Source: Umbilicaria muhlenbergii
Lineage: Eukaryota > Ascomycota > Lecanoromycetes > Umbilicariales > Umbilicariaceae
Direction of reading: 5' to 3'
DNA length: 64,000 bases
Assembly (NCBI GenBank): GCA_000611775.1
Contig: KK106981.1
Coordinates: forward strand, 2,603,211 to 2,667,210
Shown: positions 11,208-40,422 of the stretch, one piece after another
Position numbering within the stretch: position 1 is the stretch's first letter
Layout: every line of letters starts with the position of its first letter
The notes under the pieces: generated by a model
Databases searched by the model: none
Told to the model about the DNA's origin: nothing
What the model saw: only the letters and a program-made list of their open reading frames with translations
Translations under genes and position numbers: made by a program

Positions 11208-11326
11208 TTGCCTCTCTTCTTTAAAAACTCATGCTCTCATGAGTATGATGACATTCACAGTTGCAAGCCTTTACTGAGAAGTACTTCACAATACATCAAT
11301 AACAGTAAAAAAAATGACCCTGTAAG

Positions 11327-11615
11327 TGTAAGAGGGTGAGTGTACAACAGTCATCATAATGATGTTTGAATGAGATGTCACAGGCAGTAAAGTCATGATA
11401 AGATTAATGCAGTGATTATACATCTTTTATTTAATAATTAAACTGATCATTGAGAAAGCAGGTTTCTGCATCTTCTTGTGAAGAGTTTTCACTTGATGTC
11501 AAGGCGCTAAGCGCTGAGTCATCATATTTAAGCTATAGTGTTGTATCATAATGTTGTATTATAGTGTTGTATCATAGTGTTGTATTGTCATACTATATAT
11601 ATGATGACCTTGACA
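11327..11615 (-). repeat. LTR of element C (3' LTR)
   Basis: 289 bp, starting TGTAAGAGGGTGAG and ending ACCTTGACA. It holds short subrepeats of the form ATAGTGTTGTAT. The partner is exactly 8,176 bp to the right. The unit GGCGCTAAGCGCT near 11,504 is one of few CpG-bearing stretches left. Confidence 0.9.
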
Positions 11616-12415
11616 CAGTATTCCTCTTCTCATGATGCTGTCTCTGATGTTAATTGACTTTGAATCTGTCATCATAAACATCATCATGATAACCTGATAG
11701 GTGATTGATCATGTAGAGTGAGGATGTGAAATCATGTTAAAGTAAGACTGATCACATGCTCTTGTTTAATTGTGATGATATCATGCCTGACAGTAAGTTC
11801 TTCTTCTTAACATAAACATCAAAATTAAAATGTTTATTGTAAGTTTAAAACATTCTTCTCTTGTGTTTCTTCTTTGTCATCTCTCTTATAACATGTTGTT
11901 GTACTTCTCATAATTTTTTCACAGCTCATTAAGTGACCTGATGACTTCATGACATCATTCCTCATTGCAGAGGTGTTCACCTCATGAAGAGAGCATTGTG
12001 AAGCTTACAGCTCATACTTCATTTATGATGTCATACTTCCTGTCATACATCATATGAATGCTAACATGATATATAAGCAATCAATACTCAAAATCTCAAA
12101 AACATGATCATGAACAATGATGAAGACTCATCTCTGCCAGGGAAGCCTGTTGATCTTCAGGCTCAATGTGATGAGAAGGGCTCTGAGTCAGAGTTGATGA
12201 ATAAAACTGTGATGATCAACACCTTCAGAAAGAGATGAGGAAACAGAATGATAAAACTGACTATTCAACATTTGAAGAGAATCAGGTGTTTATCTTTAAA
12301 TGATGTCTTCAGCAGCAGTTTCTGCTCTGTGTGATGTCATGATGATACCTTGCTGCCAGCGCGTATGCAGCAGGGTCATCATCATGAGCATGTGATTTAA
12401 GAGAACCTCAATCAC

Positions 12416-12643
12416 ATGCTGTCAAGTACTGCTCACTGTGACTCTTGCAGAAGAGCTGAAGTTGATCAGTGCTTCATGTTGCAGATTAATTCAGCCTGCA
12501 CTCATTGCATGTCACTCTGCAATCCTCATGATCAATGCATGATGAAGTCTCTGATCATCACTGCCTCAGTCTCTGAGAGCTCTGATGTTGTTGTTTCATG
12601 CACATGTGCTTATGATGACAGAAGGAATGACAGCACACTGTAA
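12416..12643 (+). other. Cys-rich open frame antisense to element C
   Basis: A 75-residue open frame on the strand opposite to pol, between integrase and the 3' LTR. It contains CDSCRRAEVDQC and then ACTHCMSLCNPHDQC, a spacing of C-x2-C-x7-C-x8-C-x2-C that recalls fungal Zn2Cys6 clusters without matching the exact consensus. It could be a remnant of an extra retroelement gene read from the opposite strand, a captured host fragment, or chance. Function unknown. Confidence 0.35.
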
Positions 12644-15282
12644 ATCTGCTTTTTTTTAATTCTTTTTTATTTTGTTTCATTTAGTATGACATTGTTGTAC
12701 CTGTCATACATATGACATTTTTGTCATACTGTCATACTGTCATACTATTAGTATGTTAATTGCATATAGCACTCAACAGCTGATTAATTCCTCACTGCAT
12801 CATTTTTTACTGATCATTACTGACATCCTTCACACCCCCCGCAGCTGTTCCTCAACGTGAGTCTCATGACATTCACAATGAGGTGATTAGTGTTAATTCA
12901 GTAATCTTGAGGAGCTCATTCAAGCTCTTGCTGTTTTGCTGAAGAGCACTGCTCATGCTCTCTGCATCCTTAATGCTCATCAATCTCATCATCATCAAGA
13001 GTACATTGAACTCTGTGAGTGCTGATGCATTAAGGAGATGAGGTTGAAGGCTTCATTAAACAGCAGTGAAGAAAAGTTTAAGATGATGAAAGACAAGTAA
13101 ATAAATGAGAATGACTTGACATGACACTGATGAGGAATTAAATGCAAGATGTTGATTTTAAGTTCATTTTAATCTTTAAACCTGAAATGAAATGCTTCTG
13201 CACTTGAGTGTTCTCTGCAATGTAACATGTCTGTGATAATGTAGTTCATGCAGTAATCTTATTAAAGATTTCATCATAATGTTGTAATGTCATAACCTCT
13301 GTTGTATTCTTATCATAAGGCACAGGCTCTGTCATAAAAGATCAGGTTAACAAAGCTGACAAAGTTTTCAATTCTTAAGACTCATGACTTTTGTGACAGC
13401 TTCTCAATCAACCTTGAAGAGTCATATCTTAAAGCTCATGACTTTTGTGACAGCTTTTTAATCAACCTCAAAGGGTCACATCTTAAGACTCATGACTTTT
13501 GTGACAGCTTCTCAATCAACCTTGAAGGATCACATCTTAAGACTCACTTGAATTTTAATTTGTCAAGGTTGTCAGCATGAAATTTTCACATTTTTATCTT
13601 TACATTGCAGATGAAGTGTGTTGATTCTCATGTGTCATCTCACACCTGATTCATCAGCTTTCATTTAATGAGGTATTGAAGCCTGCTGTCATGAACACAG
13701 TTATTCACAATTGCCTCAACTTCTCACTTATCATCTCAGTTGAGTAGTAGGTCTTTTCCTGCTAATGCAGAGAACATATAACATGTGCCTTGAAATGACT
13801 TCAATAGAGTGACATTGAACATGTTATAGATATTTCAATCCTCTGAGAAGTCAAGTTCATATGATGATCAACTTATCACACATCATATCTTGAATGAGTT
13901 GAGTTTTTTTCAATGCAGTTTCTTCATCTGCTTGTTCACTGACACATTTTTTTCATTGATCAGTACTAAATCACCTTCTTTGAATATTATCTCTGTTCAG
14001 CATTGATTATAATAATTTACATATGTCTCATTAACCTGTCATAGCTGCTCTTAAGTTGTTGCAATTTGATCTTGAAGCTGCTGTGCATCTGCATAAGGTT
14101 TTATTTGTTCATGTGAGTGTTGTATAAGTGATCTACTTAGGCTCATCTGAGGTCTCACTTTAAGTTAAGTTGAAAGGGGCTCTTTTCTGTAGCAGCATGT
14201 ATGAAGTTGTTGTATGAGAACTTCATGCAGAGTAGAAGCTTAACTCAGTCCTCTTACTACTCATTAATGAATATGTGTAAATACATCTTCAGGGACTGAT
14301 TCTGCCTCTTTGTTTGATCATCAGTTTGCGGGTGAAAAGCTGTTGACATGTTATGACAGCATCACATGTGAAAGCAGAAGCTGATTCATTGCTTCAACAT
14401 AAAAAACTTGTCTCTGTCTGTGATTAAAACTTTTGACACATCATGATGCTTGATAATGTCCTGAATAAACACTTCAATGAAGTCAGCAACTGACATTGTC
14501 TTCTGTACAGAAATATAATGAGTCATTTTAATCAACTTATCAATTATGATGAGGATTGAATTTCATGTCATACTTTCATATGTGCTGCTCAGTGGCAGGT
14601 TCATAATGAAGTTCATTGTCACTGTATGTCATGACACTTCTGAGACTGGTAATGAGTTTAATAATTCATATGATTTGTGATGAGCTGACTTCACCTTTTG
14701 ACATTCAACACAGTCATGACAGTAATATCATATATCTCTGACAGCATCAGGTCAGTCATAAGATCACTGCATTAATTCTGTAATTCTTGACTTCCTGAAA
14801 TGATCTGCAAAGACATCATCATGAAATTGACTGATCATCACATTGTGAAGGGCAGAGTTCTGTGAAATGTAAATCTTATCATTATAATATATGACATCCT
14901 CAATTTCCTCTCAACATTTCATTATGTCAGAGAGTATTGTTGTCATATTTGTCATTTCTGACTCAGTCAAGTTGTTTTTATCCTTGAGAGGGGTAGCTAA
15001 TCCCTGTCATACTCATCATACTAAACTATCTTTCAACTGTTTAATATGAATTGTACATTTAAGTTGTTTGATAAACATTCTTATATAAGCTGTTATCTCC
15101 TCATTTAGGGGTGAGTGAGTAGACATGAGCTGAAGCGCTTTAACAGTGTCAACAGAAGAAGTGTTATCCTCAATTTAAAGATTAATAAAAATGTGACTTG
15201 TGTCACTGTTCATAATTACAGTGCTTGCTGCATTATTCTTAATTGAGTGCTGCTCAGATTCTGCATACTCAGGTTTTCTCAT

Positions 15283-15738
15283 TCAGTCATGACTTGCTTC
15301 TTGAGCATATAGGTCATGAACTGCTGATGTTTCAGTCATATCATCAACTTCAGTATTCATTATATTAATATGTTCATCACGGCTTGCTTCTTGAGCATGT
15401 AAGTCATGAACTGCTGATGTTTCAGTCATGTCGTCAGCTTCAGCATATGTCATATTGATATATTCATCATGACTTGCTTCTTGAGCATGTAGGTCATGAA
15501 CTGCTGATGTTTCAATCATGCTGTCAACTTCAACATATATTGTATTGACATATTCATCACAGCTTGCTTCTTGAGCATGTAAGTTATGAACTGCTGATGT
15601 TTCAGTCATGTCATCAGCTTCAGCATATGTTGTATTAACATATTCATCACAGCTTGCTTCTTGAGCATGTAGATCACAGACTGCTGATGTTTCAATCATG
15701 CTGTCAACTTCAATATTCATCATACTCATATTATTCAT
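15283..15738 (-). repeat. Five-unit 90-bp tandem repeat in element C pol linker
   Basis: The units start near 15,291, 15,381, 15,471, 15,561 and 15,651 at an exact 90 bp period. The minus strand is open through all five, encoding 30-residue units with the core ETSAVHDLHAQEAS followed by HDEYIN. It is acidic, lies between the RNase H and integrase regions, and varies between units mainly by transitions. A coding minisatellite within a retroelement fossil. Confidence 0.85.
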
Positions 15739-16674
15739 TGTGACAGGTATGACATTCTTTTGTTATAACCTCTGTCATACTGAGCGTCTTGACTGCAGTG
15801 TCATTGCAGCAAGCATGTATAATTTCTTCTGCATTGACTTATAGTCCTTGCTTCCTAAATGAAAGGACTGTCACATTATTTCAGCAGCAGTTAAGGTACT
15901 GACAGCTTTCAGCAGTTCATAATCAGGTCATTTTGATAAATCATCAACAGAGTTCTTCTTGTCCTCTTAATATGTGATCTTAAAGTCATATTCAGTGAGC
16001 TGCCTTCATGTGAGGTTTGAGGTAGTCATAAATCAAACAAGGTTTACATGATCAGTCAATATGATGATCAGGTGCTTAATGCCTCAACAGTAATGTCATT
16101 AATGATGTATGATTTTCATGATGACAAGGAGCTCTTGCTCATTTATATCATATCAAGTCTCAGTATCTAGCAGCTTCTTACTGTAGTAAGTAATTAATAA
16201 TCAGTGCAATTGATCATCAACCTTGAAGCATTGCATCAAGATTTCATCAATTGTGAATTCAGAGGCGTTCATTTCAACCCTCATGAGTTTGTTTTCATTG
16301 AAATAATGTAGTAATGAAGCACTCATGAAGGTCTTCTTCAAAGCATTAAATGCTTTCAATGTGACTTCTGAAAGTGAAAAAGAGGCAGGTATGATGTTTT
16401 CTTGTTGTAACTTTTCTCTGACTTGCAGATTACATGCTGAATACTTTGTATTAAACCTTCACAATGAGGTCAGGCTGTTCCACTTTTCTTTAATAACAGT
16501 TCATTGAGATTAAAGAGGAGATGTTAATGTATCCTCAGTCTTCTTTTTATTCTTTCCTGTTTTCAGGAGATTTAACAGTGATGTTGTTATACAGCAATAA
16601 TTTTTTATGAACCTTCAGAAGAAGTTCACAAAGCTTAAAAAGACTTGCAGTTCATGAATGTTCACTGAGGGTAG

Positions 16675-16974
16675 TCATTTTTTGACAGCATGAATTCTTT
16701 CTGAACTCATATGTATGCTTTCAGTATTGATCTTAAACCCTAGGAAGTTCACTTTCATTGCATTGAATGAGCATTTGCTGATCTTAAGGTGAAGATCATG
16801 ATGTTGTAATGCAGTTAATACTTGTTGTACATGCTCCTCATGTTTGAATTCATTCTTGCTGAAGATCAGGATATCATCTAGATAAATCATGCAAATTATA
16901 TCAAGGAACTCATCAAGAGTCTTATCAATAAAGGCCTGAAACATAGCAGGAGCATTCATGAGACTGAAAAGCAT
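16675..16974 (-). pseudogene. Reverse transcriptase palm fragment of element C
   Basis: 99 residues, the best preserved RT stretch in the window: SLMNAPAMFQAFIDKTL, then the catalytic motif MIYLDDILIFS, then CSFNAMKVNFLGFKI. Clearly Ty3-type. Upstream pol continues at 17,185-17,592. Confidence 0.9.
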
Positions 16975-17184
16975 GATAAGATATTTAAACAGGCTGAATC
17001 ATGTTCAGAATGCTGTTTTTCACTCATCTTCACACTTGATTAATATTCAATTATATGCATTCTTGCAGTTCAGCTTAGTGAACTTCTTAGCTCCTTGAAG
17101 ATGATTCAACATATCTGATATGAGTGATAGAGGATATCAGTTCTTAATGATAATGTCATTTAATCACTTATAATTAATGACTAG

Positions 17185-17592
17185 TCACAGGCTTTCATCT
17201 GATTTAAGCATGAACATGACAGGTGAAGCTGCAGATGATATTAATTTACAAATTATGTTTACCTTCATAACATCATCTAAATATACTTTCAGTACATCAA
17301 GCTCAGCTGAAGACATTGAGTATAACTTTCTGAATGAGGATTGCTGCTCTGATTTCAAGTCAATGACATGATCATGTGAATCTCTCTCAAGCAGAGTTTG
17401 CTTCTCAGCTGCCTGAAATATGTCTGTGTACTCATGATATTCAGATGATAATGTGTCATACACATCACTACTTCTGTTATACTGTAATGAGTTCATCTGA
17501 AGGGTATATTTTTTCATATCAGTCACTAAGTCCATCAGCCCTATGAAGTGATCAATAATAATGAGGTTGTTCATACATAGAACATTCTTCAA
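17185..17592 (-). pseudogene. RT amino-terminal fragment of element C
   Basis: 135 residues with LSSEYHEYTDIFQAAEKQTL and HDHVIDLKSEQQ, the acidic approach to the RT fingers in Ty3-like pol, ending in SPVMFMLKSDESL. It is adjacent to the palm fragment at 16,675. Confidence 0.75.
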
Positions 17593-19502
17593 TACCTTTT
17601 TTTCATTAATGATGAATATTTAATGCATGATAATATGTCTTGACTTCCTTCATAGGAATTTACCTGTATCATAGTAGTGATTTGAGTTTGCATGTACTAG
17701 AAATGATAGCTTGAGGACAAAAGAAGCTGATGTGTTGTCTTGTGTGATAAAGAAGTAATTGCTATAGTGGTAAGAGTAATCATCAGTGTCATACATTGTT
17801 ATCATCAGTATGACAGACTCTGATAGCTCAATCACATTACCTCATGCATTACCTTGAGCCTCATAGGATTCAGTCAGTAGAGACAGCTTATTGACAACAT
17901 CTCATGTGATTATATTGCCCTGACTGCCGTTGTTGATAATATATGAATATTGTGAGGATTTGCTTGTCATATCACTCATTGTTGTTATGTGCAGTTCCAC
18001 CTCTAGCTGCCCTGATATCAGATGTGAGATATCATCAATAATTAATAATAAGACAAACTGAAGGTGATTCATGAATCATTTATTCACATTAACTGTGATG
18101 AAGACAGCTGTAGATCATTCAGTCATATAATCATTTATTCAGTGACTGATGACTTCACATTTAATGCAGAGACCTGCTGACCTTCATGCATTCACTTCAT
18201 TCCTTGAGATGAAGTCTCCTTGTCAGCGTGAGGGGGTTATGAATATTCATGTCATCATTGTAGTTGCTCCTTCAGTGATTGATATATGATTGAGATTCTG
18301 ACTCTGATTGCAGCCACTTTCACAGTAGAAACCTCATGAGTTGTTTTCTCTTTCACAGCTGAATTGAGTGAATTGAGTGCAGATTGTTTATTATTTGATG
18401 AGAGATTTTTTTCTGTCATAATATGACATCTGTGTCATTCTTTTGTTGTTATTGTCAGTTTTGCTTTAATGATCCTTTTTGGTGTCTGAGCGGCTTCAGA
18501 ATGATTCATGATTAATGATGATGTCAAGATGTGTTGAAATTTCCTGCACTGACTATCTTGCAACCTGCGTCAGATCTCAACATCATAGTTCAATTAAAAC
18601 ATGATGAGGAAGCCTTGATCATCAGTGATTTTAAATGAGCATTTCACTGATTTCCTTATGTGAAGCTGAAAGGAAGCAGTAGAGTTCTGATAATTTATTA
18701 TATCAGAAGATGATTATATCATGACTGCAGAGTTCAGCTGCATTGAAGATGATGATATTTCATTCATTCATGTCTTCATCAGAGGATAGATTCTTCTTTA
18801 AAATTTTTAAAAAGTTGTTGTAAATAATTCAAGTGTAATCATGCTGCTTCTTTTGCTTTCATCAGTTGCTTATGATTATTTTCTCAAGGTAAATGCCTGC
18901 TCAGATGATGAAATCTCATTTGATAGAAAATTGCTCTGACATCAGCTCCTGATTCTGATTGATTTCATTCAAGTATTCTTGAAGTTTTCATCTCATGACT
19001 TTAACACCTCCTGCATAAAGATGAGGCTCTCATGACTTTATAAGGTGTTGAAAAGGGGGAGGTGTGATATCTGTCATAATTTAACATCATAATTCATGTG
19101 ATGAACCTGCATCATTTCTTGAGTTTATCATAGTTGAAGGATCTTCTTGCAGATGTTGATTAAGCTCTCAGAGCTTCCTTTTATTATCTTTAAACTCAAT
19201 TTCTTGTCATACTCATCATAATTGTAGTCACTGACACTTGATGACTTCTTGATTGTGAGCAGTGACTGCTTCAAGATTATTAATGAAGTCATCAGAGTTA
19301 CCTGCATTGATATGTTCATTGTTGTCATTGATGATGTCAGAAGCAGGAGTGTCAACAGTTAATAATGTAAACTTGTTAATTAAAGGCCCTGATTCAGCTT
19401 GATTGACTGTTTCACTGACTTGATGAGATTGAAGTGTTGATGCCATCATGTCTTATTTGCTTTCAACATGACCGTTCGCCTGAAGGTACTGAGTGATCAG
19501 TA

Positions 19503-19791
19503 TGTAAAAAAGTGAGTATATGATGATTGTTGTAATGATGTTTGAACAGGGTGTCACAGGCAGTAAAGTCATGATAAAGTTAATGCAGTGATTATACATC
19601 TTCTATTTGATGATCAAACTGATCACTGAGGAAGCAGGTTTCTGCACTTCCTTGTGAAAAGTTTTCACTTGATGTCAAGGCGTTAAGCGCTGAGTCATCA
19701 TATTTAAGTTATAATGTCATATCATAGTGTCATATTATAGTGTCATATCATAGTGTTGTACTGTCATACTATATATATGGTGGCCCTGACA
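19503..19791 (-). repeat. LTR of element C (5' LTR)
   Basis: 289 bp partner of 11,327-11,615. Where the left copy reads GTTGTA three times, this copy reads GTCATA at the homologous sites (CA at 19,718, 19,731 and 19,744). Confidence 0.9.
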
Positions 19792-19796
19792 GTAAG

Positions 19797-26005: not shown

Positions 26006-26460
26006 TGTAAGTGTACTACTGTGAGGTAATATCTTAACTAAGGAATTATGAAGTTATGTGACAATAATGACTTAAGCTTATAGTTGATAATTTGCAATAG
26101 TATGATATTGCTAATAAGTAGAGAATTATTGTTAAGAAAGAAAATGAAACATGCTTTAATCTCATAATATATCTCTTTTGAAGTTAGCCTGCTTGAGGAA
26201 GATTTTATAAAGCAGTCACTTTAATGAAGCTGTCTTCATAAAATGTTTATTGCTGAATCACACCTCTGTGAGGTGTCATCAATGATGTTAACTTTTTTAA
26301 TCACTTTCATGAAGTGTCAGAAGTGATGTTTATTAGCTGAGTTTTCTCATGAAGTTGATTCATTAATAAAAGTTACCTTCACAAGATTGTGCTGTTGTTA
26401 AATATAATCTTTTCTATTCTGAACTAGCACTTGATGAGTTTCATACATCAGATGCTCACA
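26006..26460 (-). repeat. LTR of family B (5' LTR)
   Basis: 455 bp partner of 10,753-11,207, followed by the target duplication GATCT. The differences I checked between the two are transitions. Confidence 0.9.
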
Positions 26461-26465
26461 GATCT

Positions 26466-27300
26466 TTTAAATATAAATGCAGTCAACAACACAAAATAAA
26501 ACAATTGAACTTTTTTTTTTAATAAATAATGATAAATATCAGTTGATTAAAAGTATTTAATAACATATTTTAAATTATCTGTTTTTATAAAAAGTTAATA
26601 TGATATTTCTTTAATAAGTTTACAGGTCTATTATATGTTATTTTTAATAATTAAGTTAATAATTAACACAATGAAAAATGTTCTTAAACTTGTTATTTAA
26701 TATCTTTTACAGTTTAACTTGTGACACTATTCATCTTGTGCTCAGCCTTGAACTTGTAAAGTAATTAAATTTGATAAATATATTTATTGCAATATTTAAC
26801 TTTATGATAATACTGTTGTTTAAACTTCACTTTATGAAATTGCACAAAGTATTCACAGTGACTGTTTTAAGAAAATTCAATGAGTTTAAAGATTTTAAAG
26901 GATCCCTGATATATGTATAATATTTAAAAAACACTGAGTCAGATGAGTGTAAAGCATAAAAGATGCACAATTTACTGTTACAATTTGCATAAAGTTCCTT
27001 CATAAGTGAACTTGTTAAATGAAGTGAGTTTGTCAAACCTGTTTCTATGACACTGAGTGACAGGCTTGACTTTTTAAATAATGCTCTGAGCTCTTGATCA
27101 AGTGTTCTGATAGAGGTTCAGTCGGATCTGTCATAACTTGCATGATGCAATCAGTGGCTAAGCTAAGCAATCTAGGAGCAGCAAGGAGTGAGGATGTTGA
27201 GTTGAAGGAGGATGCTGAAGTTGAAGATGAAGCATTCAAAAGTAGCATGTTGACATGCTGAACTGAAGGCATCAGCAGGAACTAATGGAAAGCTGTCAAG
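26466..27300. other. AT-rich margin of the repeat block
   Basis: No recognised gene or repeat. AT content falls off gradually after about 27,040, and CpG reappears near 27,300, marking the left edge of the gene island. Short open frames here have no coding features I trust. Confidence 0.5.
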
Positions 27301-27936
27301 ACACAGCCGCTTTAACAGAACGCTAAGCTTGATCAAGCAAAAAAGTACACTTGCCATACAAGAGTCAGACCCACGAGACGCCCAATTCTCTTGAGTCTGT
27401 GGTCGTATGTGACAGTTTATGGTTCCATAACAATATATGACGGGTCAAAGTATCCACGTGGTTGATGGTTGTACCACTTAGCAGCAAGCCAAGATGGGTT
27501 TTTAATACTAAACAAGAGTGTTGGAGTGTGGTGGAATAGCGAGCACGAAGAAGTAGATCAATTCAAACATGTGGGACATCATTCGATTTGTGGCAGATGT
27601 GGACGTGAGAGGCGATAAAGCCCTAGGTAGTAGCAGGTGATAATCGTCGGCAAAACACACGGGAACCAAATGAGATGTGGAGTTTCCGACATTAATTCCC
27701 CCTACCTATTGAGCTGGTCAGAGGTGAGAAGTCAATGTTCGCCTCGCATAACACGGCCTCCTCCCACTGAAAGCATCCACTTTATTCATTCTTTTGATGT
27801 CGCAAATCCAGCCATCCTCCGTCCCATAAATTCCGACAAGATAAAAGGTAGAAAACCTGGCTCTTTGGGCCTGAAACGCCGTCTTAATGCATGTAGTTCA
27901 TCACATATCATCCTCCCGACCTCGGCGGTCATGACA
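27301..27936. other. Left intergenic of the gene island
   Basis: Unique-looking sequence of balanced composition downstream of the MMtag gene. I see no convincing gene; plus-strand frames from 27,637 are low-complexity shadows of the Arg-rich gene on the other strand. Confidence 0.5.
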
Positions 27937-28852
27937 CTACCTCCTCCTCCTCTCCTCCTCTCTGCTATCCCTCCTCCTCGCAACCGGAGACCGAGTGCGC
28001 TCGCGCCGGCTGGGTCTCTCATCTCTCTCGCGTCGTCGCTCATAGCTTCTCGACCTATCGCGCCTTTGTCGCTCCCCTCTCGATCTCTCTCGTGATCTCT
28101 CTCTCCTTCTATCACCCCTCGACCGCGACCTAGATCGATGCCGCCGATGATACCGCCGTTGGTCGCGCCTATCATGATCGTGCTCCTCTTCCCTCCTCCT
28201 CCTCCGATGTGCATGTCTTCTCTCCCCATCCCCATCCCTATCCCTATCCCTCCTGCCCTCCCGATCCCTTCTCCCCTCGAGCGCCCCATCCCCATCCCTC
28301 CCCTNNNNNCTTCCCCTCCCCATCCCCCTCCCCTTCCACCGTCTCCCTCACCGCCCTTTCCACCTCCCCCTTCCCCACCGCGCCCCCATTATTCCCTAAA
28401 ACCCCCCGCTCCACCGGCGCAAACCCCAACGCCGCGCTCAGCGCCTCCTGCTCCGCGACTTTGATCTGGCGGATCTCCTCGGCGCGGAGAGCGGCTGCAG
28501 AGGCAAGGGCGTCCGCGGGGGTATTGGAGGAGGAGGAGGCGTACCAGGAGAGGTCGCGGTTTTTCTGCCAGCGCCCCACGGCTGTTGCGTGGCTGTTAGG
28601 TAAGAGAAGAAAACTTTGCACGGGGAGTGGGGATGATGGGAGGGACGTACGAGCCATGAGGGAGTGGCCGAGGTAGTTCTCGCGGTGCTGGTCATCTTTT
28701 ACGTCTTCCCATTTGAAAGAGGCGCGGCCGCCGCTGGGGAAAGGGGGGGGTGGTTAGTAAGGAGTTCTTTGAGTTTGAGGATTGTGGAATGGGGAGCACG
28801 GGAGGGGGGGGTACCGGCTGCCTTCTTTGCGAACACCGGCAACGAGATCCAT
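27937..28852 (-). CDS. MMtag-domain protein with Arg/Ser-rich tail
   Basis: Likely homologue of human MMTAG2 (C1orf35) and its fungal relatives, nuclear proteins of poorly known role. Exon 1 is 28,815-28,852 (MDLVAGVRKEGSR), exon 2 is 28,651-28,733 (FKWEDVKDDQHRENYLGHSL), exon 3 begins at 28,581 (PVGRWQKNRDLSWYA, then a helical EEIRQIKVAEQEALSAALGF stretch). Together these match the conserved MMtag block. Introns are 81 and 69 bp; the first has a TACTAAC-like branch site. The tail is dense in Arg, Asp and Ser (for example HRSRSRSRGDRRRERSRER), like splicing-associated proteins, and ends at a TAG at 27,937-27,939. A 5-N gap at 28,305-28,309 lies inside exon 3 and the frame differs on its two sides, so the true gap length is probably not 5. 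The domain call is strong; the joint across the gap is uncertain. Confidence 0.82.
28305..28309. other. Assembly gap (5 N)
   Basis: Five N bases inside exon 3 of the MMtag gene, in a C-rich simple-sequence stretch on the plus strand. The open frames left and right of it are in different phases. Confidence 0.99.
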
Positions 28853-29413
28853 GCTGGAGAGATGGGGTATGGAAGGGTTGAGTTGAACGGCGGTGGTGGT
28901 AGGTTGGCAGTGAGGGAGGCGGGAGATGGAGAGTACAAGTGTTGAAGAGGAAAGTTAGCCGAGGGCGCCGAGTCAACCGTGTTTTGAGACTTATTCCATA
29001 GTCAAGTTCTCGTAGGACATTGGAACCAGTTGTTACCACTGATTACCGCTAGTTACCAGTCAAGCCCGCAGTCACTATCTTTTGAAAACCGCCTTAAAAG
29101 GAAACGTGCTTGCACGCCTTATCCATCACCATCAACGTCCAGTCTCGAAAAACTTTACATGCAAAAATACATGGGCGCCAAATTACCTGCGCAAGTTGCT
29201 AAACCCTATTAACCCTCAAGTGGTCTGGATGCGGACCTTATGCTGGAGCACTGGTGCGTGGACTGCTATTGTTGGGTAGTGGCATAACTCTGCATTTCAT
29301 TAAGCATTATCTAGAGCAGAAGTGGCGGTTTCACAATGATAATACCGAAGGTAAACATGTCACAGTCTAGGTCCAGCACGGGACGATCAAGCAGTACTTT
29401 TGGTATATGTGCA
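28853..29413. promoter_or_regulatory. Intergenic: upstream of the MMtag gene, downstream of glucosidase I
   Basis: 561 bp between two minus-strand genes. It should hold the MMtag promoter and the glucosidase 3' UTR. I see no TATA box that I would assign and no RNA gene. Confidence 0.45.
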
Positions 29414-32263
29414 CTACAACTCACTGCGGTCTTGCTTGCCGCTACTTAGATCCGGCATCGTCATCAAGTTGACCACTAAGCTCGTCCAGCCAGTGAAGTG
29501 CTGCGTCCGCTGTCCCGCTCCTGTGTCGGGGTTGTATTGTTCCCACGCGAAACCCGTCCGCTCCCACTCGTTGTACACATTCTCCACCAGATTCTTCCGT
29601 AACTTGGTGTAAATATCACGCGCTTGCTCTTGGTGCGGCCCCTTTTGAAGGGCAACGTCCTATCGAGTAATTAGCCTTTCCTCGTTGATGCGGTTCTGGA
29701 AAACAGAAGGGATAGTTTACCAGTAAGCTTTTAACAGCCAAGTAATTGATATTGATCCATATAGGACTCCTCCAGTAATTTTCGCCTGTTGCGTAAAATT
29801 CGTCCTTTTTGCTCAAACTCCTTAGACCGTAAGGCGTCCACAACTCTTTCGGGTTGCTGATCAAATCCAGTACTGCTTTTAGCCGCGGACTGTCTGCCGG
29901 CAGTAGTCCAGTCAAAAACGGGAAAATCGAAATATATCCTTTGTGGCACACATGTACACTTTCTTCGTAGTCATCGATAGTTGCATCGCAATATGTTTGT
30001 TCTTTCTCGTCCCAATGTAAATCGTCAATGTTCCTGATGATAGCAGTCTCGTAGCCTTGGAATTGCATGGCATCGTCCTCTTCTCCAATGGTTTTGGCAA
30101 TCCGACGGATTGACCTGGTCATCATACCCATCCAGCTTATCAAATCAGTATGGAGCTCACCGGGATGCGGTGGTTGCGGTCGGGGATAGTCATCGAGACC
30201 AGATGGGAGGATGTGTTCTGGTGTTCGGCCCCGCCAACGGTACGCCTCTTTAGTGGAGTAAGCTTCCCTATCGTAAGTCTTGATATCTCCCCATTGAGTT
30301 CCACGCATCCAGAAGTAGTGGCGTTTCAGCAGCGGGTAAAGCTCTCGTAGGTAGCCAATTGCAGACCCCTCTTGTAGAAGTGTGCTACGGATCGGGTCGA
30401 TAGGCTCGGTTGGAGAACCGTTAGCGCCTGCTAAAGTCTCCATTCTGTCTATGAGGGTTTCCAGAACGAGGAAAAGTGTTGGGGCATTAGCGTAGTGTGG
30501 GTATTGAACCTGGAACTCCTGCGGTACTTTACTGCGAGCTTCTGGACCCAATATCTGCTCACGTGGAATCCAGCCGTCCTCATCAATCGTGTTGAACCAG
30601 CTTTTCACGATGTCAAGCCTGTTGATTGTCAGCGTAAAGAAAACAGACGTTGAGTCTCAGGCTTACGCCAGATCAATATCCCAGTCTACAACGGGTAACA
30701 AATGAAAACCTTCATCCCACAGAAAACCCCGAGGGAAGAAGGGTCTTGATGGAATACTGGTAAATAATTCTGAAGGGCCTTCGAGTTCGTGATTACCCCG
30801 GCTTCGAACCTCGGCCGTCTCCTCCCAGAATCCCTCATTCTCTTCTTCGTATTCTGGTGCATATGACCTGTCGACGACATAGTCCCCGTGAAAGTAGCCA
30901 ATTCCACCAATGAGATTGGACAGCATCGATTTTCCAAACTTGAGGTATTTCGATTTCGTGAAAGGGGCTTGTGGCGCCAATACCTTGGAGAAGCGATCCG
31001 AGAACGACTTGGCGACAGCCGTTATTTCTCGAGTCATGTCATCCGCTGAGGCAAATTAGCTCTATCGCACACAGGAAGCTTGCTCAAGTACATACAAGTA
31101 ACGGTCTCAGGAGCAGAACCAGACGAGAAGATGATATCGAACTGGATTCAACGGTCAACAAACATTCGCCATGTCGTCTAGAAGTTTTCACTAACCTCGA
31201 ACGCCCCCATAAACACCTTCTGCATCAAATGCAGATTCCCCTCTCGTATTTCATTGCCGATTGTAAACACCTGCCACGGTGGCGGCGGGTTGTCTTCGCC
31301 GTACTTCCCAATATAGGCGTCAACCTGCTCTTTCATATGGGTAAACAGTAGAGCTATACGTCTAGTCAGTACTAATCCACGTAAAGCGCTCAAGGCTTCC
31401 TACAGCCGCATCATCTGATGAGATGCGCCAACGTACGTTTTGTCTGCCATATAGCTTCTTCCGGTACCTGGAAGCTTGCTACCATTGTCCGATCAAGCGG
31501 TTTCTCGGCGTAGGAATCATGAGTAGCTGGTGGGTGCATGTTCGTGCTTGGGCCTTCTGTTATGTCGATCTTGAAATCACCCAGCTCAGTACTTTGCCCA
31601 TTCAGAGTCACAGTTCCTTCTAATCCCAGCTCATCTATCTCATTCGCAACCTCGAGACTTCCAAAGCCCTCCATAGCAGTGTAGAAAATCACGGCGCTCA
31701 TCAGTTTAGCAGGCGCATCTTCTCTTGGCGTGCCTCTTACACGAACGCCCCAGCTTCCACCATGGCGCCCGCCCAGAAACTTCACAAACTCGGTGGTGAT
31801 GTCGACCTTGTTATTTTCGTCGTGAATTGTTTGGCGGCCACCATCGCGGACATCATATTCTTCCCAGCCATAGCCGGCCATGTTCTCGCCCTGCTCACAC
31901 GTGTGCCGGAAGTCTATAGAAATTGTGCTATTAGCAATTGAACCTTTGATATGACTAATGTAGTCCAAGTCCAGGTTATGGACAGGAGCAGCGACTCTCG
32001 GACGTACTGTGCTGCACACTCTGGTAGTCATCCACCTTGGCCCACATCAGGCCCGTCAGCAAGCTCTTTGGTATGCGTGGTCGAACACCAAAGTACAGAT
32101 TTGGCCTGTAGGGACCCCATAGCAGCGATTCGTTCGACGGTCTTGCTGCTCCTGGCGCAAGAAGTGTTTCGTCGTCGACCCCATGCGTCTGAGCATCGCT
32201 GAGCGAAAGAAACGCTATAAACAAGGCTGCAATGAGCGCTGGAAAACGCAAGACGTCAAACAT
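29414..32263 (-). CDS. CWH41: Mannosyl-oligosaccharide glucosidase (glucosidase I, GH63)
   Basis: ER enzyme that removes the outermost glucose from the glycan newly transferred to proteins, the first trimming step of N-glycan processing. Seven exons: 32,008-32,263, 31,437-31,913, 31,196-31,353, 31,096-31,141, 30,667-31,045, 29,721-30,618, 29,414-29,659, all in phase and giving 819 residues, the usual fungal length. The introns are 48-94 bp. Residues 7-22 form a hydrophobic signal anchor, as expected for a luminal type II protein. The amino-terminal GH63 domain has [19 protein letters not shown]. The catalytic (alpha/alpha)6 domain carries [12 protein letters not shown] (416-427), [10 protein letters not shown] (480-489) and [11 protein letters not shown] (593-603), which aligns with the known glucotriose-binding signature, and the end has [13 protein letters not shown]. 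The divergent neighbour is a BBE-like oxidase with 706 bp shared upstream. No defects seen. Confidence 0.96.
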
Positions 32264-32969
32264 GGTGCCAGAAAAGGATGGACGAGAAGAGAGAGTCGAG
32301 AAGCTCCGATGAGTGATGGAGCTTCACGGCTGCGCGACTTGCGGCATAGGGCCCGAAATGTTGTGAACACGAACACGCTACATTTCGTGAAGAAAGCAGA
32401 AACGACATGGGTCGGATAGGCTCTTGGCAACGCCCAAGCTTCTACGCGTACAACATAGAGTAGGAGTTACTTTAGTTAGGCGAGGTAGGACCCTTAGGCC
32501 CGTAGGCGTACCTTGCTCCAGGCGGTCCCGGGGTCCGAAAGTCAATTTCCTCGGGCCCTGTTTAACAGGCTCACAGGCTGGCAAGGTGTGGTTACGCGCA
32601 TCGACGGATCCACGCATTTCTCCACGCTACCTGAACCACTGGGCTCCCCTCCCCTATCAACACAATTAAGTACGGAATGGCAAAACGAAGTCATGGCGTA
32701 CGCACGTTCGAATCCTACGTCCTCAAGGCTATGGCCGCGAATCGTGAAGCTACCAGGCAGCGAGCCAGGGTCGACCGAGACAAGGATATCGGTCAGACCC
32801 AATCCGCTGCTGTTCCTCTCCGCTGGATAAGATACATCCTCCACTCTTGCGGCATTTCTTGCCTGGCATTGATGCCTCTGCTTGTCCATCCTACCCATGC
32901 GGTTCTTGACCGACGTTGCATTTTGCAGTGTCTTTCCTCATAGCTGATCTCAGTGTTAATTGGTTGATC
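32264..32969. promoter_or_regulatory. Shared divergent upstream region
   Basis: 706 bp between the start codons of glucosidase I (minus) and the FAD oxidase (plus); both promoters must lie here. No long open frame that looks real. A GTTCGAATCC at about 32,706 resembles a tRNA B box, but no cloverleaf can be drawn around it. Confidence 0.5.
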
Positions 32970-35073
32970 ATGGTCTCGGTAACTTTGTCACTACTGAGCT
33001 TTGCTCTTGCTATTGCTCAAACATCTGCCTATCCGAAGATCTGCAAATGTGTGAGTTTTCGAAGGACCGCTGCTGCTGTTGATCGTAGCAATCGAGCATC
33101 TGACGTGACAATGAACATGAAAGGTTCCAGAGGACGCCTGCTGGCCGTCAACAGCTACATGGGATGCATTGAACCAATCACTTGCCGGCAATCTTATCAA
33201 AACTATCCCGCCCGCTGCGGCCTGCTACCCAGGACCGGAGCAGAATGCTGATGTCTGCGCATTTGTCGACGCTCAGTGGAGCAATTCAACCTTCCATGCC
33301 AATGACCCTACCAGCATCGACTACCCCGAATGGGCCGGTTCACCTTGCTTGCCCGTCAATGCATCGGCCGGTCAGAACGCGATTGGGACATGTGAAGTTG
33401 GGGGGTATCCAGTATATTCGGTGAATGCCACAGAGGTCATGCACATATCCAAGGGCATTGGCTATGCCAGAAAACATAATATCAGATTAGTGGTCAAGAA
33501 TACTGGCCACGATCTTCTGGGGAGGTGCGGCGCTCTCCTTGTACCTTCTTAGTCTCATTTTTGTCATCTGACCCTTCGACTTCATTGCAGATCCAACGGC
33601 TATGGCAGCCTGAACATCTGGGTGCGGCATCTCAGACAAGGCGTTACATTTCAGCAGATCTACCAGCCAAGGAACAGCTGCTCAAAGAGCGAGTGGCATG
33701 GCAGTGCGTTCGTAATCAGAGGGGGATATACATGGAATGATATCTATGGAGAGGCCGCAGATAGGGGCGTCATCGTCGCTGGGGGCGGAGACCCAGTATG
33801 TGACCACGCAGGCCTACGTTGAACCAGAGTCGTGATTTTCTTCAGCTCTAATACATCTCTAGAGTGTCGCATGTCTGGGTGGCTGGATGCAAGGTGGTGG
33901 TCATTCACCCGCCACTCACGATTACGGCTTAGGGGCCGATCAAGTCCTTGCAGCTCAAGTCGTACTGGCAAACGGAACGCTAGTCAATGCCAGCCCATGC
34001 GAGAACCCCGATCTTTTCTTCGCCATCCGTGGTGGTGGTGGAGGCACCTATGGTGTGGTCGTCTCCACTACCATCAAAGCGTACCCAACCACAAACGTGG
34101 TCGGCCAGACGCTTGCCATCACACCCCTTACCACCAGCGCCAACGGCACCAACGCCCTCTTCGACGCCATCGCGCTCATGTACTCCGAGTTCCCCAATCT
34201 GTCAGACGCCGGCTACTCCGGCTACGGCTCCTGGACCACGCACGGCTACGAGCCCATCGCCAACAACAGCACTTCCGGCTACATCCACGACATCGCCATC
34301 TTCGGCACCTCCCTCCCAGCCTCCGAGTCGATCTTCGCCCCCGTTGCCGCCAAGCTTTCCCACTGGAACACCACCTCCCTATCCATCACCACAAGCTACA
34401 CCTCCTTCCCCACCTACTCGGACTACTACACCCACCAATCCGGCGTCCAAGGCCCCGTCGGCTCCAACGCCGCCCTCGGCTCCCGCCTCCTCAACCGCGC
34501 CGCTCTTGCCTCCCGCCGGGATAAACTACGACAAACACTGCAGACACTAGCGGGCACGGCAGAACAGTTCACCTCCATCAACATCGTCTTCGTCGGCGGC
34601 GGCCAAGTCGCCAAAGATCGAGAGGACATCTACTCCGGCGTCAACCCCGCCTGGCGTGACGCGTACGTGCACAACATCGTCGCGCGCGGCTGGGCCGACG
34701 GGACGGACGCGGCGACGATTGAGGGTATTAGGGATGATATCACCTATACGAAAGTGCAGGCGATGAAGGAGTTGGCGCCGGAGACGGGGTGTTATATGAA
34801 CGTAAGGGAGCCGGACCTTTTGCATCCCCCGCTTCATTCTCCCCCCAAAGGGGGGAAAAAAGGCTTTCATCGTTGCTGATGCGGGCAACCATCTGATGAC
34901 AGGAAGCCGATCGTTTCGACCCGGACTACGAGGTCGATTTCTACGGTGCGCATTTTGCGCGGTTGGCGGCGGTTAAGGACATGTATGATCCGCAGCACGT
35001 CTTTTACTGCCCCACGTGCGTCGGTAGCGAACGGTGGACGGAGTGGCCGAACGGGACGTTGTGTATGGTTTGA
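32970..35073 (+). CDS. Secreted FAD-linked oxidoreductase (BBE-like, VAO family)
   Basis: Flavin-dependent oxidase of the berberine bridge enzyme-like group, related to fungal isoamyl alcohol oxidase-type proteins; the substrate cannot be told from sequence. Five exons: 32,970-33,050, 33,133-33,524, 33,591-33,795, 33,863-34,801, 34,903-35,073, giving 595 residues. The first ~20 residues are a signal peptide (LSLLSFALAIAQTSA), so it is probably secreted. The FAD-binding domain has VVKNTGHDLLGRS; His153 here is the likely covalent flavin ligand. It then has GGWMQGGGHSPATHDYGLGA (233-252) and FFAIRGGGGGTYGVV. The C-terminal BBE segment reads MYDPQHVFYCPTCVGSERW. The Cys that makes a second flavin bond in bicovalent relatives is not at its usual place. 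The exon 2 acceptor at 33,132 was chosen because it keeps the frame; one 2 bp upstream would not. The gene converges on formate dehydrogenase. Confidence 0.92.
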
Positions 35074-35541
35074 AGCAATGGAATTGTTGGTTTTTTGGGG
35101 GTTTGGGGAGCCTGCCTGTTCTGGCGAGATAAAGTCGTCGGTTGTGGAAGACTTGAACGAGGGTCCACTGTTGTGGGGGCAGTAGGGCATCAACTTCCAC
35201 AGCAACTCGAACCCAGGACCAAGCTAGCTAGTCTTCGACTACGATAACGACACCCAGGCCACGACTGGCGGACGTAGAGGTGAATTCCGGCTTGTGGGGG
35301 TCACGTGCGGCGATTGGCCGAGACTTGTTCCATCTACCTGCCAGTCTCAAAATGAAACCGTAGTGGCTGTTAATTTGCAAGAGCAGCACTTATTCCCATC
35401 CAATCATAGCCAAGGCTGAAAATTGAATTTCTCATATTCTCCAATCCGCTATCTTGAATTGTCTTGGATATTTAAAAAAAACACCCCCCGCCTCCCCTCC
35501 CCTTCCCTTCCCTTCCCACCCCCAGCCTATCCCACTTCCCC
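35074..35541. terminator. Convergent 3' intergenic region
   Basis: 468 bp between two converging genes, to be shared by both 3' UTRs and polyadenylation sites. A long C/T tract at about 35,484-35,540 (plus strand) is a GA-rich tract for the formate dehydrogenase transcript just past its stop codon. Confidence 0.45.
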
Positions 35542-37025
35542 CTATTTCTTGTTCGTCCTCTGCCCATAAGCCTTAGTAGCATACTCGCCCTTATGCACAA
35601 TCAAATCCTCCGGCTTATAGTCCTCCTTGCCGCTAAAGTAGCTTTCGAGAATCGCCTTCGTGCCCGCCGCGTAGCGCTTCTGCGCGTCGATGGACGTGCC
35701 CGACATGTGCGGCACCATGGCGTTGCCGCCGCCGAAGGGGTTCTTGGCGTAGCGGAGCGGGTGGTCTTTGGGCGCCGGTTGCGGGAACCAGACGTCGCCG
35801 CCGTAGCCGCGCAGTTGGCCGGACTTGAGGGCTTCGGCGACGTCTTCTTTGACGACGATGGCGCCGCGGGCGGTGTTGACGAGCCAGGAGCCTGGGGTTG
35901 GATTTGTTAGTATGCTGGATCGGGGGGGTGGGCCGGGGGGTGGGGAGAGGGCTGGGTGGGGAAAGAAGCATACCCTTCTTCATCTTGGAGATCAACTCTT
36001 TGTTGAAGAGACCCTTGGTTTTTTCGTGGAGAGGACAGTTGATGGTGACGACGTCGCATTGTCCCAACATCTCCTCCAAGGTGTCGACGCGCCTGCACCC
36101 GATTTCCTTTTCGATCTCCGGCTTGAGCGGTTGGTAGTCGAAGTAGAGCAGCTCCTTGCAGTCAAAGGCCTTCAGTCTCCGCAGCACTCGTTCGCCGATG
36201 CGGCCGACGGCGACGGTGCCGACGACTTTGTTCTCGAGGTCGTATTCGTTCTTAGCGACGGCGGCGACGTTCCAGTCGCCGGCTTGGATCTGTTCGTGGG
36301 CGGGGACGAAGTTGCGGACGAGGGTGAGGATGGTCATGACGACGTGTTCGGCGACGGAGACGACATTGGAGCCGGTGACTTCGGCGACGGTGATGCCGCC
36401 GTTGGTGGTGTTGGCGGCGTTGAGGTCGACGTGGTCGGAGCCGATGCCGGCGGTGATGGCGATCTTGAGGTTCTTCGCTTTGGCGAGACGCTCAGCGGTC
36501 AGGTAGCCCGGGTGGAAGCTGTAGATTGAAGGATTGTTAGTCGGTGGACTGGGGGAGCTTCATCAAGCTTCAATGGAAGCTAGTCGGCCTCCATTGATGG
36601 TTGGAGTGATCGGGAGCACTCACGGCGTGGTGATGATGACTTCAGCGTCCACCAATTCCTGGTCAAACTTGGAGTTCTCGCCCTCCTTGTCGGACGTGGT
36701 GACCAAAGTGTGGCCTTGGTCCTCGAGCCATTTCCGGATGCCTAGCTCGTTCTCGGTCGTGCCCAGCAACTCCGGGACATCACGAGCGTGCTCGCCGCCA
36801 TCGTACAGAACGAGTAGAACCTGCAGCGGTCAGGACCAAAAGGCCGTTGTTGGTCTCGCTGGAGGTTGAGGTGGAAGTTACCTTGCCCTGTTGCGGTGCA
36901 GTCGCTGTTAGCGTGCGTACCCCGCCAAAGCGCTGCAACTTCGAAGTCACAGCCGGAGTGCGGGTCGTAGAGAGAAGGGAAGAGGCAGGGCGGGACAACC
37001 GCGAGACGGAGCGAAGAAATACCAT
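35542..37025 (-). CDS. FDH1: NAD-dependent formate dehydrogenase
   Basis: Oxidises formate to CO2 with reduction of NAD+; in fungi it detoxifies formate and feeds NADH metabolism (A. nidulans AciA type). Four exons: 36,882-37,025, 36,624-36,820, 35,974-36,518, 35,542-35,891, giving 411 residues. The introns are 61, 105 and 82 bp, the last with a CTAAC branch site. The first ~45 residues are rich in Arg, Ser and Thr without acids, a mitochondrial presequence. Visible residues: formate-binding Asn165 in [11 protein letters not shown] motif GTVAVGRIG (214-222), Asp241 in FDYQP which selects NAD+ over NADP+, Arg304 in NTARG, Gln333 in FPQPAP and catalytic His357 in VPHMSGTS. All key residues are present. 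The short C-terminal tail after YATKAYGQ is normal. The body starts [16 protein letters not shown] right after the presequence exon. Confidence 0.97.
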
Positions 37026-38247
37026 TTTGAAGAGGAAGAGGAAGAGGAAGAAGAAGAAGGACGATTATGAAATGGCAATGGAGCACTCAATGGCTTTGTC
37101 GAGAGGTCGAGCTGTAGTTATGCCAGAGGTGAGGCCTTTTCTCGGCTCGAGGGAAGTGTGGAGAGGGAGGTACCTCTCTGATCTGCCGGTGCAGCAACAG
37201 TAAGGTAAGCTAGTGAGCTACGTAATGATAGCTGCCACCTTTTCCGGACGTGCCTGGGAACTTACCGGTCTGGGATAGGAGCCAGGAGCGTGGAAGCGGT
37301 GCGCGGAGATAGCACAGATAGGGAAATCAAGGTGTGTGCGGATGGGATCGCATCAAGCGCCAGAGGGAGGGCGGGACTATTTATTCTACTTGGATTCTAG
37401 AGTCTCCCTCTTCCAATTCACTCATCCAGTTGTATGTCGTCAGATCGAGATGGCCGTCCCCTCAGACCTCCACCCAGCGGACCCCCCAGCAACGGGTGAC
37501 TAACACGATCCGGGAGCTACGTGGAGACTTTCCTCCTGGTCGTGAGCGTGGGTTGCTGCCATTCGTGCTTGGTGCCCAAAACCCCACTTTCTTGGTGTTT
37601 CTTGTATCGAAGGTCAGACGGGGTCCCGCACTGGAGCCAAACTCAATTGCGGGGTCATGCACGCCGCCACCAGGAAGAAGGAAGAAGTCAGATGTCAGCA
37701 CGGCATCTGCAGGGCGCACTTGATCCGGGAACACGCCCCGATGAGTTGGAATGGAAAGCGTGTGCCAGTGCTAATGGCAAAGCATCGGTAGGCCGAAGAC
37801 ACCTCCGGCCGATTTCCTAGCTGTGGGTGGTGCAACGTCACTGGGCCTGGGTGGGCTCATTGCTGTTTACGCTTCCTCGGGCAATTCTAGAACACTTGTT
37901 TTGTGGGTTTGGATCAACCCATTTGGCCGAAGTTCGGCGGGGAGACCGCTGCGATGTCGGCGTGGGTGAGGCTCTTGAATGCTCACGTGCTCTAGTTCCT
38001 CAGGATTTCTAATTCCGAAAGCTGGACTGGCTCACAAAAGCGGTATTTCGTTGCTTGATGTCAAGCTTTCATGGAGTGCCGTGAACCGAGAACGAACCTA
38101 GCTTGCTACAGAAAGAGGTATCACTATCCAGCACAGACCGCTAACGTTCTAGCCATACAACGCCTCTCCACAAGTTACCCTGGATCCATCATCAATCGCC
38201 AATTCGAGTATGAACATCTTGTAGCATGGCAAGACCCCTCCCTCGTC
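37026..38247. promoter_or_regulatory. Upstream region of formate dehydrogenase; 1.2 kb without a clear gene
   Basis: It contains a GA-rich purine run (plus strand 37,028-37,062) directly before the start codon and an AATAAATAG stretch (minus strand, about 37,379) that might be TATA-like. Open frames of 90-130 codons occur on both strands between 37,334 and 37,820 but overlap each other and match nothing I know. Confidence 0.45.
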
Positions 38248-39596: not shown

Positions 39597-39710
39597 AAGC
39601 TGGCAAAAATTTGAGTGCGGGTTAAACTTAAAGGCAACACCTGGAGACTTGAAAGATTGCGACGATGAGACGTAGATGTAAGAAATGAGAAGAGACTAGA
39701 TGGAGGATAC

Positions 39711-39720
39711 CCTATATATT
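39711..39720 (-). promoter_or_regulatory. TATA-like box of the membrane-protein gene
   Basis: AATATATAGG on the minus strand, about 115-125 bp before the proposed start codon at 39,596. Confidence 0.35.
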
Positions 39721-40020
39721 GAAGCTCGAGCTCGAGTCTCGAACGCAACCCGACCGCCTCACTTCAGGGCGGCAAGGGGTTTCAGGCGTAACCGGATCAG
39801 TAGTACGTGTAGCGGGAGAAGTGGCGAGAAGGTGGCACTTTCTCGACGTTATGGTACAGTGTGGGTGTGGTAGTGGTTAGTTGGTTGGTTGGTTGGTTTA
39901 TTTATAGACCGTCCCAGCTCCCTAAGGGTGCTATGCGGCGTGTCCCTACAGGGGTGAGGGGGTAAGGGCTTTCTCCAGTTACGGTGCCAAGCTTTTTGGC
40001 CTGGCACTCACAGCTGAGAA
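39721..40020. other. Right margin of the gene island
   Basis: GC-balanced sequence with a short TTGG run (39,881-39,897) and then GGGGTGAGGGGG-type purine stretches. Composition drops to AT-rich at about 40,020, the right edge of the island. No gene seen. Confidence 0.5.
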
Positions 40021-40280
40021 GCCTGGAACAAAGAAGCAATTTTAATGCTGAAATTCAGTGCAAAATCCCTTAAAGTCTTATTGTCCCTGCAGTTTATTTA
40101 TAATCATTTTTATTTCAATTATTAATCTGTACTCTTATGATCTTGAGCTCATGCTGCCTTTGTATAATGATATATCTTTCAGTTGAGTCTGCTGTTAAGT
40201 GTGACTGCACTCAGCTTTGCTGACATGTCCCCTCAGTGACTTACAAAGCAGATGTCAGAAGTCAGCATAATCTTGTTTTA

Positions 40281-40422
40281 ATCACTTAAACTCCTCTGCC
40301 TCAGTTAAGATTAACTAAGTCTTAATGCCCTTTGAGATTAACTACAAATACTGATTGTGTGCATTTTTCAGGGAGGATCTGAGGGCGTAATCTTAAAAAC
40401 AAGTTAAAAAATACTTCATGTT
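40281..40422 (+). repeat. Dispersed repeat H, copy 1
   Basis: About 142 bp matching 42,546-42,686 in direct orientation, sharing GATTAACTACAAA and TTTTTCAG cores. Weaker similarity continues right for some 250 bp in both copies. Unknown element, perhaps an old LTR. Confidence 0.65.

Follow-up and report, generated by a model that had tools for sequence, protein, structure and literature searches.

The window analysed here is a stretch of 64,000 nucleotides of contig KK106981.1 of Umbilicaria muhlenbergii (positions 2,603,211 to 2,667,210), and our subject is element C, a dead long terminal repeat (LTR) retrotransposon that is one member of a family. Its two LTRs, 289 bp each, align without gaps at an offset of 8,176, and the bases GTAAG stand on either side of the element. 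This target-site duplication marks the LTRs as belonging to one insertion and as identical when it occurred, as an original prediction made from the letters of the window had held; LTR replication makes both LTRs of one element identical at insertion. The element retains an open piece of reverse transcriptase with a YLDD motif, presumably Gypsy-like as judged by inspection, and because this relic lies on the minus strand the left LTR is called the 3' LTR. The features of element C are as follows.

11322–11326, no strand: left copy of the target-site duplication, GTAAG, matching the five bases right after the right LTR
11327–11615, minus strand: left LTR (3' LTR), in gapless alignment to 19503–19791
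11345–11372, no strand: reciprocal sites 11345, 11348, 11352 and 11355 (CA left, TG right) and 11371 (TG left, CA right; partner 19547)
11505–11513, no strand: two GCGC CpGs that resist mutation, with CG retained in 23/40 and 34/40 LTR copies
11542–11569, no strand: reciprocal sites 11542, 11555 and 11568 (TG left), with CA right at 19718, 19731 and 19744
16675–16974, minus strand: reverse transcriptase open piece (PF00078, E 5.5e-16) with the YLDD motif
19503–19791, minus strand: right LTR (5' LTR), aligned to the left LTR
19792–19796, no strand: right copy of the target-site duplication, GTAAG, equal to the left copy

Reciprocal TG/CA states in the LTR pair

The two LTRs of element C differ at 43 of 289 positions, and all of these differences are transitions (0 transversions). 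They include eight sites at which one copy reads TG and the other CA, four with TG on the left and four with CA on the left, where the ancestral state was CpG, mutated alternatively on the two strands. The reciprocal states from which the original prediction started are thus confirmed: its three sites (11542, 11555 and 11568 against 19718, 19731 and 19744) are each exactly 8,176 bp apart, and its statements that the LTR differences are transitions and that the ancestor was CG both hold. Those three sites share a GTCGTA context and recur every 13 bp within a short tandem repeat (11542–11581, which includes a fourth unit), so they do not represent three independent sequence contexts. When the 43 transitions were placed at random, reciprocal sites averaged 1.1 and reached a maximum of 7, and eight or more arose in 0 of 20,000 trials. 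Reciprocal sites hold 16 of the 43 differing bases; tabulated by dinucleotide, the other 27 fall at CpT (17), CpC (6) and CpA (4), so that CpA is far from being the majority context.

The left LTR reads as four CA sites followed by four TG sites, and processive action along a strand was considered and rejected as a general feature: strand correlation extends only to 15 bp or less in the 40 LTR copies described below (p 0.0015) and to 2–6 bp in 26 repeat alignments. In these alignments the orientation of neighbouring reciprocal sites shows no memory beyond 6 bp, being the same in 0.74 of 35 site pairs at 2–6 bp and 0.46 of 52 at 7–12 bp. Two single transitions within one copy share a strand in 0.455–0.513 of cases at all distances tested, and two in different copies do so in 0.606 at 1–6 bp and about 0.5 beyond. 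The absence of strand runs means that mutation proceeded one site at a time or in many successive rounds.

Element C also contains four 90-bp tandem units (15283–15738) with an open minus-strand frame of 151 amino acids, for which no family match above its cut-off was found. A search of Rfam gave no match within the 64-kb window.

Target context across LTR copies and repeats

The genome sampled comprises 34.8 Mb in 7 contigs, in which the element C LTR has at least 41 matches (40 scored of 396 first-look candidates); we counted 40 distinct copies, leaving out one (L014) that is identical to another (L015). CpG columns were defined as those with TG and CA each in at least 3 copies, and 14 were used after omission of one messy column of 15. 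Across the 554 resulting cells TA occurs in only 14, against 92.8 expected under strand independence, and the two strands are therefore nearly exclusive. CG is retained in 79 of these cells; in the 12 columns outside GCGC, no CG is kept in 25 of the 40 copies, one in 9, two in 5 and three in 1. Once one strand of a CpG has mutated, the site reads TG/CA and its remaining C stands in the poor CpA context, so that the site freezes; two copies mutated on opposite strands at such a site then read TG against CA.

Ten candidate LTR pairs were examined; in six of them the 5-bp target duplications are identical and the alignment is free of gaps. These six pairs hold 43, 35, 30, 30, 34 and 17 transitions and 0, 1, 0, 0, 0 and 0 transversions, in total 189 versus 1 over 1,724 bp, with 27 TG/CA reciprocals versus 0 GT/AC in the GpC control. 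Four pairs lacking a target duplication were left out (transitions 36, 31, 26 and 34; transversions 5, 0, 1 and 4). Copies of the LTR family differ by indels, and of the 12 LTRs that form the six pairs only 1 is closest to its own partner, a star-like pattern. One LTR of the family is contained in a recent duplication (L003 at C7:1503059 and L004 at C1:1071006).

Expressed as C/T over C/T plus C/C, mutation in the six pairs amounts to 39/73 at CC, 60/224 at CT and, lowest, 22/292 at CA. The second base downstream matters nearly as much: sites with A at +2 are mutated in 61/125 cases versus 74/436 for other bases (odds ratio 4.7, p 5e-12). For a broader sample we excluded repeat alignments shorter than 200 bp or more than 99.5% identical, which kept 184, and, with those below 70% identity also excluded, obtained 26 non-overlapping alignments (31.3 kb) holding 4,079 transitions and 619 transversions, and 456 TG/CA reciprocals versus 46 GT/AC. 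A logistic model of these alignments, from which reciprocal sites were excluded, gives effect ranges of 1.64 at +1, 1.45 at +2, 0.47 at -1 and 0.49 at +3, position -1 showing a weak penalty for G and mildly favouring T. A control fitted to 239 C>A transversions is noisy; its profile is flatter, with a +2 range of 0.45 and its largest effects at +1 (0.74), +4 (0.71) and -2 (0.69). Taken alignment by alignment, A at +2 goes with the higher rate in 20 of the 21 that offer 20 or more such sites and with an equal rate in one (the other 5 of the 26, with fewer than 20 sites each, were skipped).

CpC and CpT are mutated well above the transversion background, and whichever base stands at +1, mutation is more frequent when A follows at +2, so that the target spans three bases. 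It can be written C-[G>C>T>A]-A, in which the deciding bases lie 3' of the mutated C. CAG is protected most strongly (49/963 in the 26 alignments), and CpG within GCGC is largely spared. The original prediction that CpG is the mutated context is borne out for CpG as the top target and is incomplete, since CpC and CpT are also targeted and A at +2 raises the rate. A TpCpG target, suggested by a residual CpG table that resembled avoidance of TCG, was rejected: strand-resolved ACGA sites are mutated 20 times on the CGA strand versus 8 on the TCG strand, and these counts together with the regression shift most of the effect to +2 A. Simulation with the full context rates reproduces the data at r 0.94, compared with 0.83 for +1 only, 0.79 for CpG only and -0.45 for a Neurospora-like preference, a consistency check in that the rates come from the same sequences and the CGN and CCG rates were set by hand.

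The same signature is seen in base composition, compared between 195 AT-rich and 260 gene-rich 500-bp bins taken solely from the window plus 20 stretches on contig C1 (bins containing N were dropped from this comparison and kept in the residual CpG table). Observed/expected (O/E) ratios in AT-rich versus gene-rich bins are 0.01 versus 0.99 for CGA (about 100-fold down), 0.13 versus 1.14 for CCA (9-fold down), 0.30 versus 0.71 for CTA and 1.04 versus 1.28 for CAA, with CAG and CTG at 2.35 versus 1.13 and TCA and TGA at 2.36 versus 1.17. A hold-out from contigs C2, C4 and C7 (13,155 bp), new for composition alone because its loci also enter the 26 alignments, has 0 CGA, with CCA at 0.05, CTA at 0.24 and CAG at 2.25. 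Positions 1–26000 of the window have O/E values of 0.06 for CpG, 1.58 for CA and 1.41 for TG. The TpA/ApT product index is 0.65 in AT-rich DNA versus 0.71 in the gene island described below. At 40660–41860 the window holds an array of a 12-bp unit in which GC is common, CG almost absent and CAG frequent.

Changes of CGA to TGA and of TGG to TGA predict TGA as a common nonsense codon. RVT_1 relics (150 scored of 877 candidates) carry 682 TGA, 15 TAG and 106 TAA stops (682/803 TGA), TGA being the majority stop in 139 of the 150, and RVT_2 relics (55 matches) carry 231 TGA, 4 TAG and 97 TAA (231/332); these reverse-transcriptase matches are related copies that share stops and are not independent. 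Matches free of stops occur in both sets (1/150 RVT_1 and 2/55 RVT_2). Several relics on different contigs coincide in both score and number of stops (pairs C1/C5, C3/C5 and C4/C7, some near contig ends), which suggests recent exchanges or duplications between contigs.

Repeat borders and methyltransferase genes

The window includes one gene island, with the following neighbours.

26450–27415, no strand: repeat ending at the left island edge, with 6 CpG over its 966 bp, 5 of which fall within the final 108 bp
27416–39982, no strand: gene island, taken as the unmutated neighbour, carrying exons for a GH63 glucosidase and one exon for a D-2-hydroxyacid dehydrogenase
39983–40282, no strand: CpG-free stretch of about 285–300 bp, adjoining a repeat and having no repeat match among those listed

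The CpG O/E of the island is 0.92 (27500–40000) versus 0.06–0.09 in its AT-rich flanks, and the island borders lie within about 0.1–0.3 kb of repeat borders. On the left, 27415 is the last base covered by genome-wide repeat matches, and CpG becomes frequent past that point; on the right, the island has its final CpG at 39982, and the first repeat matches appear near 40267–40282, so that the CpG-free stretch between them is possibly leakage of mutation from the adjoining repeat. A search with the two edges of the island found no other copies. Three other AT-rich stretches or edges that were searched proved to be repeats, wholly or partly. At 42300–44200, where GC content is about 24%, short, diverged copies match piecewise across the genome.

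A search with the cytosine methyltransferase profile PF00145 gave four genome matches: a DIM-2-like gene, a RID-like gene, a DNMT5-like gene and a degenerate gene related to the DNMT5-like one. The RID-like gene (L010) has no BAH match and carries EQT at motif VI, which we take to be a RID hallmark; its frame is broken within a GGTAAGT...TTTAG stretch resembling an intron. The DIM-2-like gene has a DUF7893 match, a BAH match just under the cut-off and a long match (E 3.5e-157) to chain 9bap, presumably the structure of Neurospora DIM-2. An SNF2 domain lies about 2.7 kb downstream of the DNMT5-like gene (L011), whose degenerate relative (L012, C1:6527376) shares 79% identity with it. Proteins compared in order to place the genome gave no position finer than Pezizomycotina: a FAS beta fragment scores 2,472 bits against 4v58 (presumably Thermomyces lanuginosus) and 2,274 against 7q5s (presumably Chaetomium thermophilum), an acetyl-CoA synthetase matches 7kq6 and 7kdn (presumably Coccidioides and Aspergillus) about equally well, and homoserine dehydrogenase and GH63 gave no placement.

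Candidate processes and known systems

These patterns speak for an active hypermutation process and against a gradual decay of methylated CpG. We think it probable that each copy of the element C family, once inserted, was struck by an active C-to-T mutator directed at repeats and resembling repeat-induced point mutation (RIP), the fungal defence that mutates repeats. A RID-class cytosine-5 methyltransferase, perhaps together with DIM-2, may recognise CNA, and the base may then be deaminated before meiosis, over many rounds. Since most of the context is found 3' of the C, a methyltransferase reading fits better than an APOBEC-like deaminase; such deaminases read the 5' side of their target C. 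The link between the RID-like enzyme and the mutation spectrum is drawn from homology only.

Several observations weigh against such a mutator. The 3.3-kb C7/C1 duplication has 1 mismatch in 3,289, probably having few targets, and the L011/L012 pair is not clearly hypermutated, with 70 C>T plus G>A changes versus 54 in reverse and CG changed to TG or CA at 19/53 sites one way and 7/43 the other. TGA is the majority stop in only 35/55 RVT_2 matches, and the dependence on repeats rests on two borders of one gene island. Long strand runs are also absent, unlike in Neurospora, where RIP in a single cross is strand-asymmetric and leaves long runs of mutation on one strand.

If methylation of repeat CpGs were instead maintained, for example by DNMT5, and 5-methylcytosine deaminated spontaneously over long times as in vertebrates, CpG would be expected as the top context and the strand would be chosen site by site, both as found here, and a DNMT5-like gene is present. 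Spontaneous deamination of CpG in vertebrates carries a hazard elevated tens-fold. Set against the single transversion in the six pairs, the loss of CG from all but 79 of 554 CpG cells translates into a per-site CpG hazard about 6,700-fold that of transversions, or at least about 1,200-fold at the Poisson upper limit, values inflated by the choice of variable columns. This is not the CpG excess over ordinary background transversions that such deamination would leave; with one transversion in 1,724 bp, known spontaneous rates appear unable to explain the CpG loss. Mutation of CpC and CpT far above transversions, the +2 A effect and the resistance of GCGC are, moreover, not properties of deamination alone. 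We accordingly regard passive decay as improbable, although the available part of PMC4352252 cites Clutterbuck 2011 for such a view of CpG targets.

A mitotic mutator driven by DIM-2, as in Zymoseptoria tritici with another context and without need of a sexual stage, has more in its favour and is still an unlikely explanation. Dim2-dependent mitotic C-to-T mutation in repeats is reported in the accessible text of PMC8016269, a DIM-2-like gene is present here, and slow accumulation is compatible with the missing strand runs; the same text places more than 98% of the Z. tritici changes at CA, the poorest context in Umbilicaria. Gene conversion or recombination among already diverged copies, in place of mutation after insertion, could draw on the 1/12 LTRs closest to their own partner and on the 13-bp tandem repeat that holds 11542, 11555 and 11568. 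We consider it very improbable: the target duplications of the six pairs are perfect and their alignments gapless though family copies differ by indels, independent mutation of each LTR in a common context explains the star-like pattern, and conversion gives no reason for transition-only differences. Chance or an artefact of alignment is next to impossible, being already refuted by the random trials (0/20,000) and by the GpC control (0 vs 27).

Whether the RIP machinery reads C-[G>C>T]-A, making Umbilicaria the first Pezizomycotina lineage with a target set at +2 and one that writes TGA rather than TAA or TAG stops, we judge to be evenly balanced. The usual RIP indices presume CpA targets, and the TpA/ApT index would miss such mutation entirely. 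A three-base target would tie the mutation spectrum to methyltransferase sequence, as a trait that can be mapped on RID and DIM-2 phylogenies. In the titles, abstract openings and passages available to us we found no report of a +2 A preference in ascomycete RIP, and those of PMC10234303, PMC6180176, PMC7296669, PMC10787394, PMC3248453 and PMC5555474 give no +2 base for RIP; the claim that the three-base context is a new variant of RIP is limited by this partial coverage. CpG-type RIP itself is already reported in Pezizomycotina, for Uncinocarpus, Coccidioides and Tuber. The original prediction's contrast with the CpA-targeted RIP of most Pezizomycotina holds in that CpA is the poorest context here, and a CpG bias is not new to the group.

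In general terms the Umbilicaria process resembles RIP: transitions are nearly exclusive, mutation is restricted to repeats at two borders, and a RID/Masc1-class gene is encoded. As in Neurospora crassa, C-to-T changes occur in repeats, a gene island is spared and a RID homologue is present; unlike in Neurospora, CpA comes last, A at +2 matters, GCGC resists and long strand runs are missing, so that neither the CpA preference (PMC4352252 and PMC7862722, as far as available) nor the one-strand runs of the Neurospora type are found. The Z. tritici Dim2 mutator is alike in tying repeat-associated C-to-T change to a methyltransferase and unlike in being CA-specific, according to the available text of PMC8016269, a legend of which gives CGA and CGC as the preferred 5-methylcytosine sites within CG. 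The TpCpG hypermutation of RIP-like type described for Microbotryum and Pucciniomycotina (PMC5381629, in part) shares a three-base context around CpG; there a T precedes the mutated C, which is not the case here, where A stands at +2 and non-CpG cytosines are also targeted.

There are parallels with systems of the CpG type as well. The accessible part of PMC4352252 gives CpA, CpT and CpG signatures and Dnmt1 classes, names CpG also for A. niger and A. fumigatus, and describes for Tuber melanosporum transposons a CpG signature with CpA secondary, together with RID/Masc1 and Dim2 classes; Tuber methylation is interpreted as methylation induced premeiotically (MIP) in the available passages of PMC4165359. 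Tuber thus has CpG plus a second context and the same two enzyme classes, the second context being CpA there, whereas CpA is lowest here. In Onygenales, the passages available indicate a CpG bias in Coccidioides (PMC4014442) and, in Uncinocarpus reesii, a rise of CA and TG (PMC7862722) and a CG preference (PMC4165359); a table row of PMC7862722 lists three methyltransferase classes for U. reesii, which we take as Dim-2, RID and DNMT5. These passages give no three-base context, whereas in Umbilicaria CpC and CpT with A at +2 are targets too. The preference for CpG over CpA and the joint rise of CA and TG that mark the Onygenales and Tuber type are both found in Umbilicaria.

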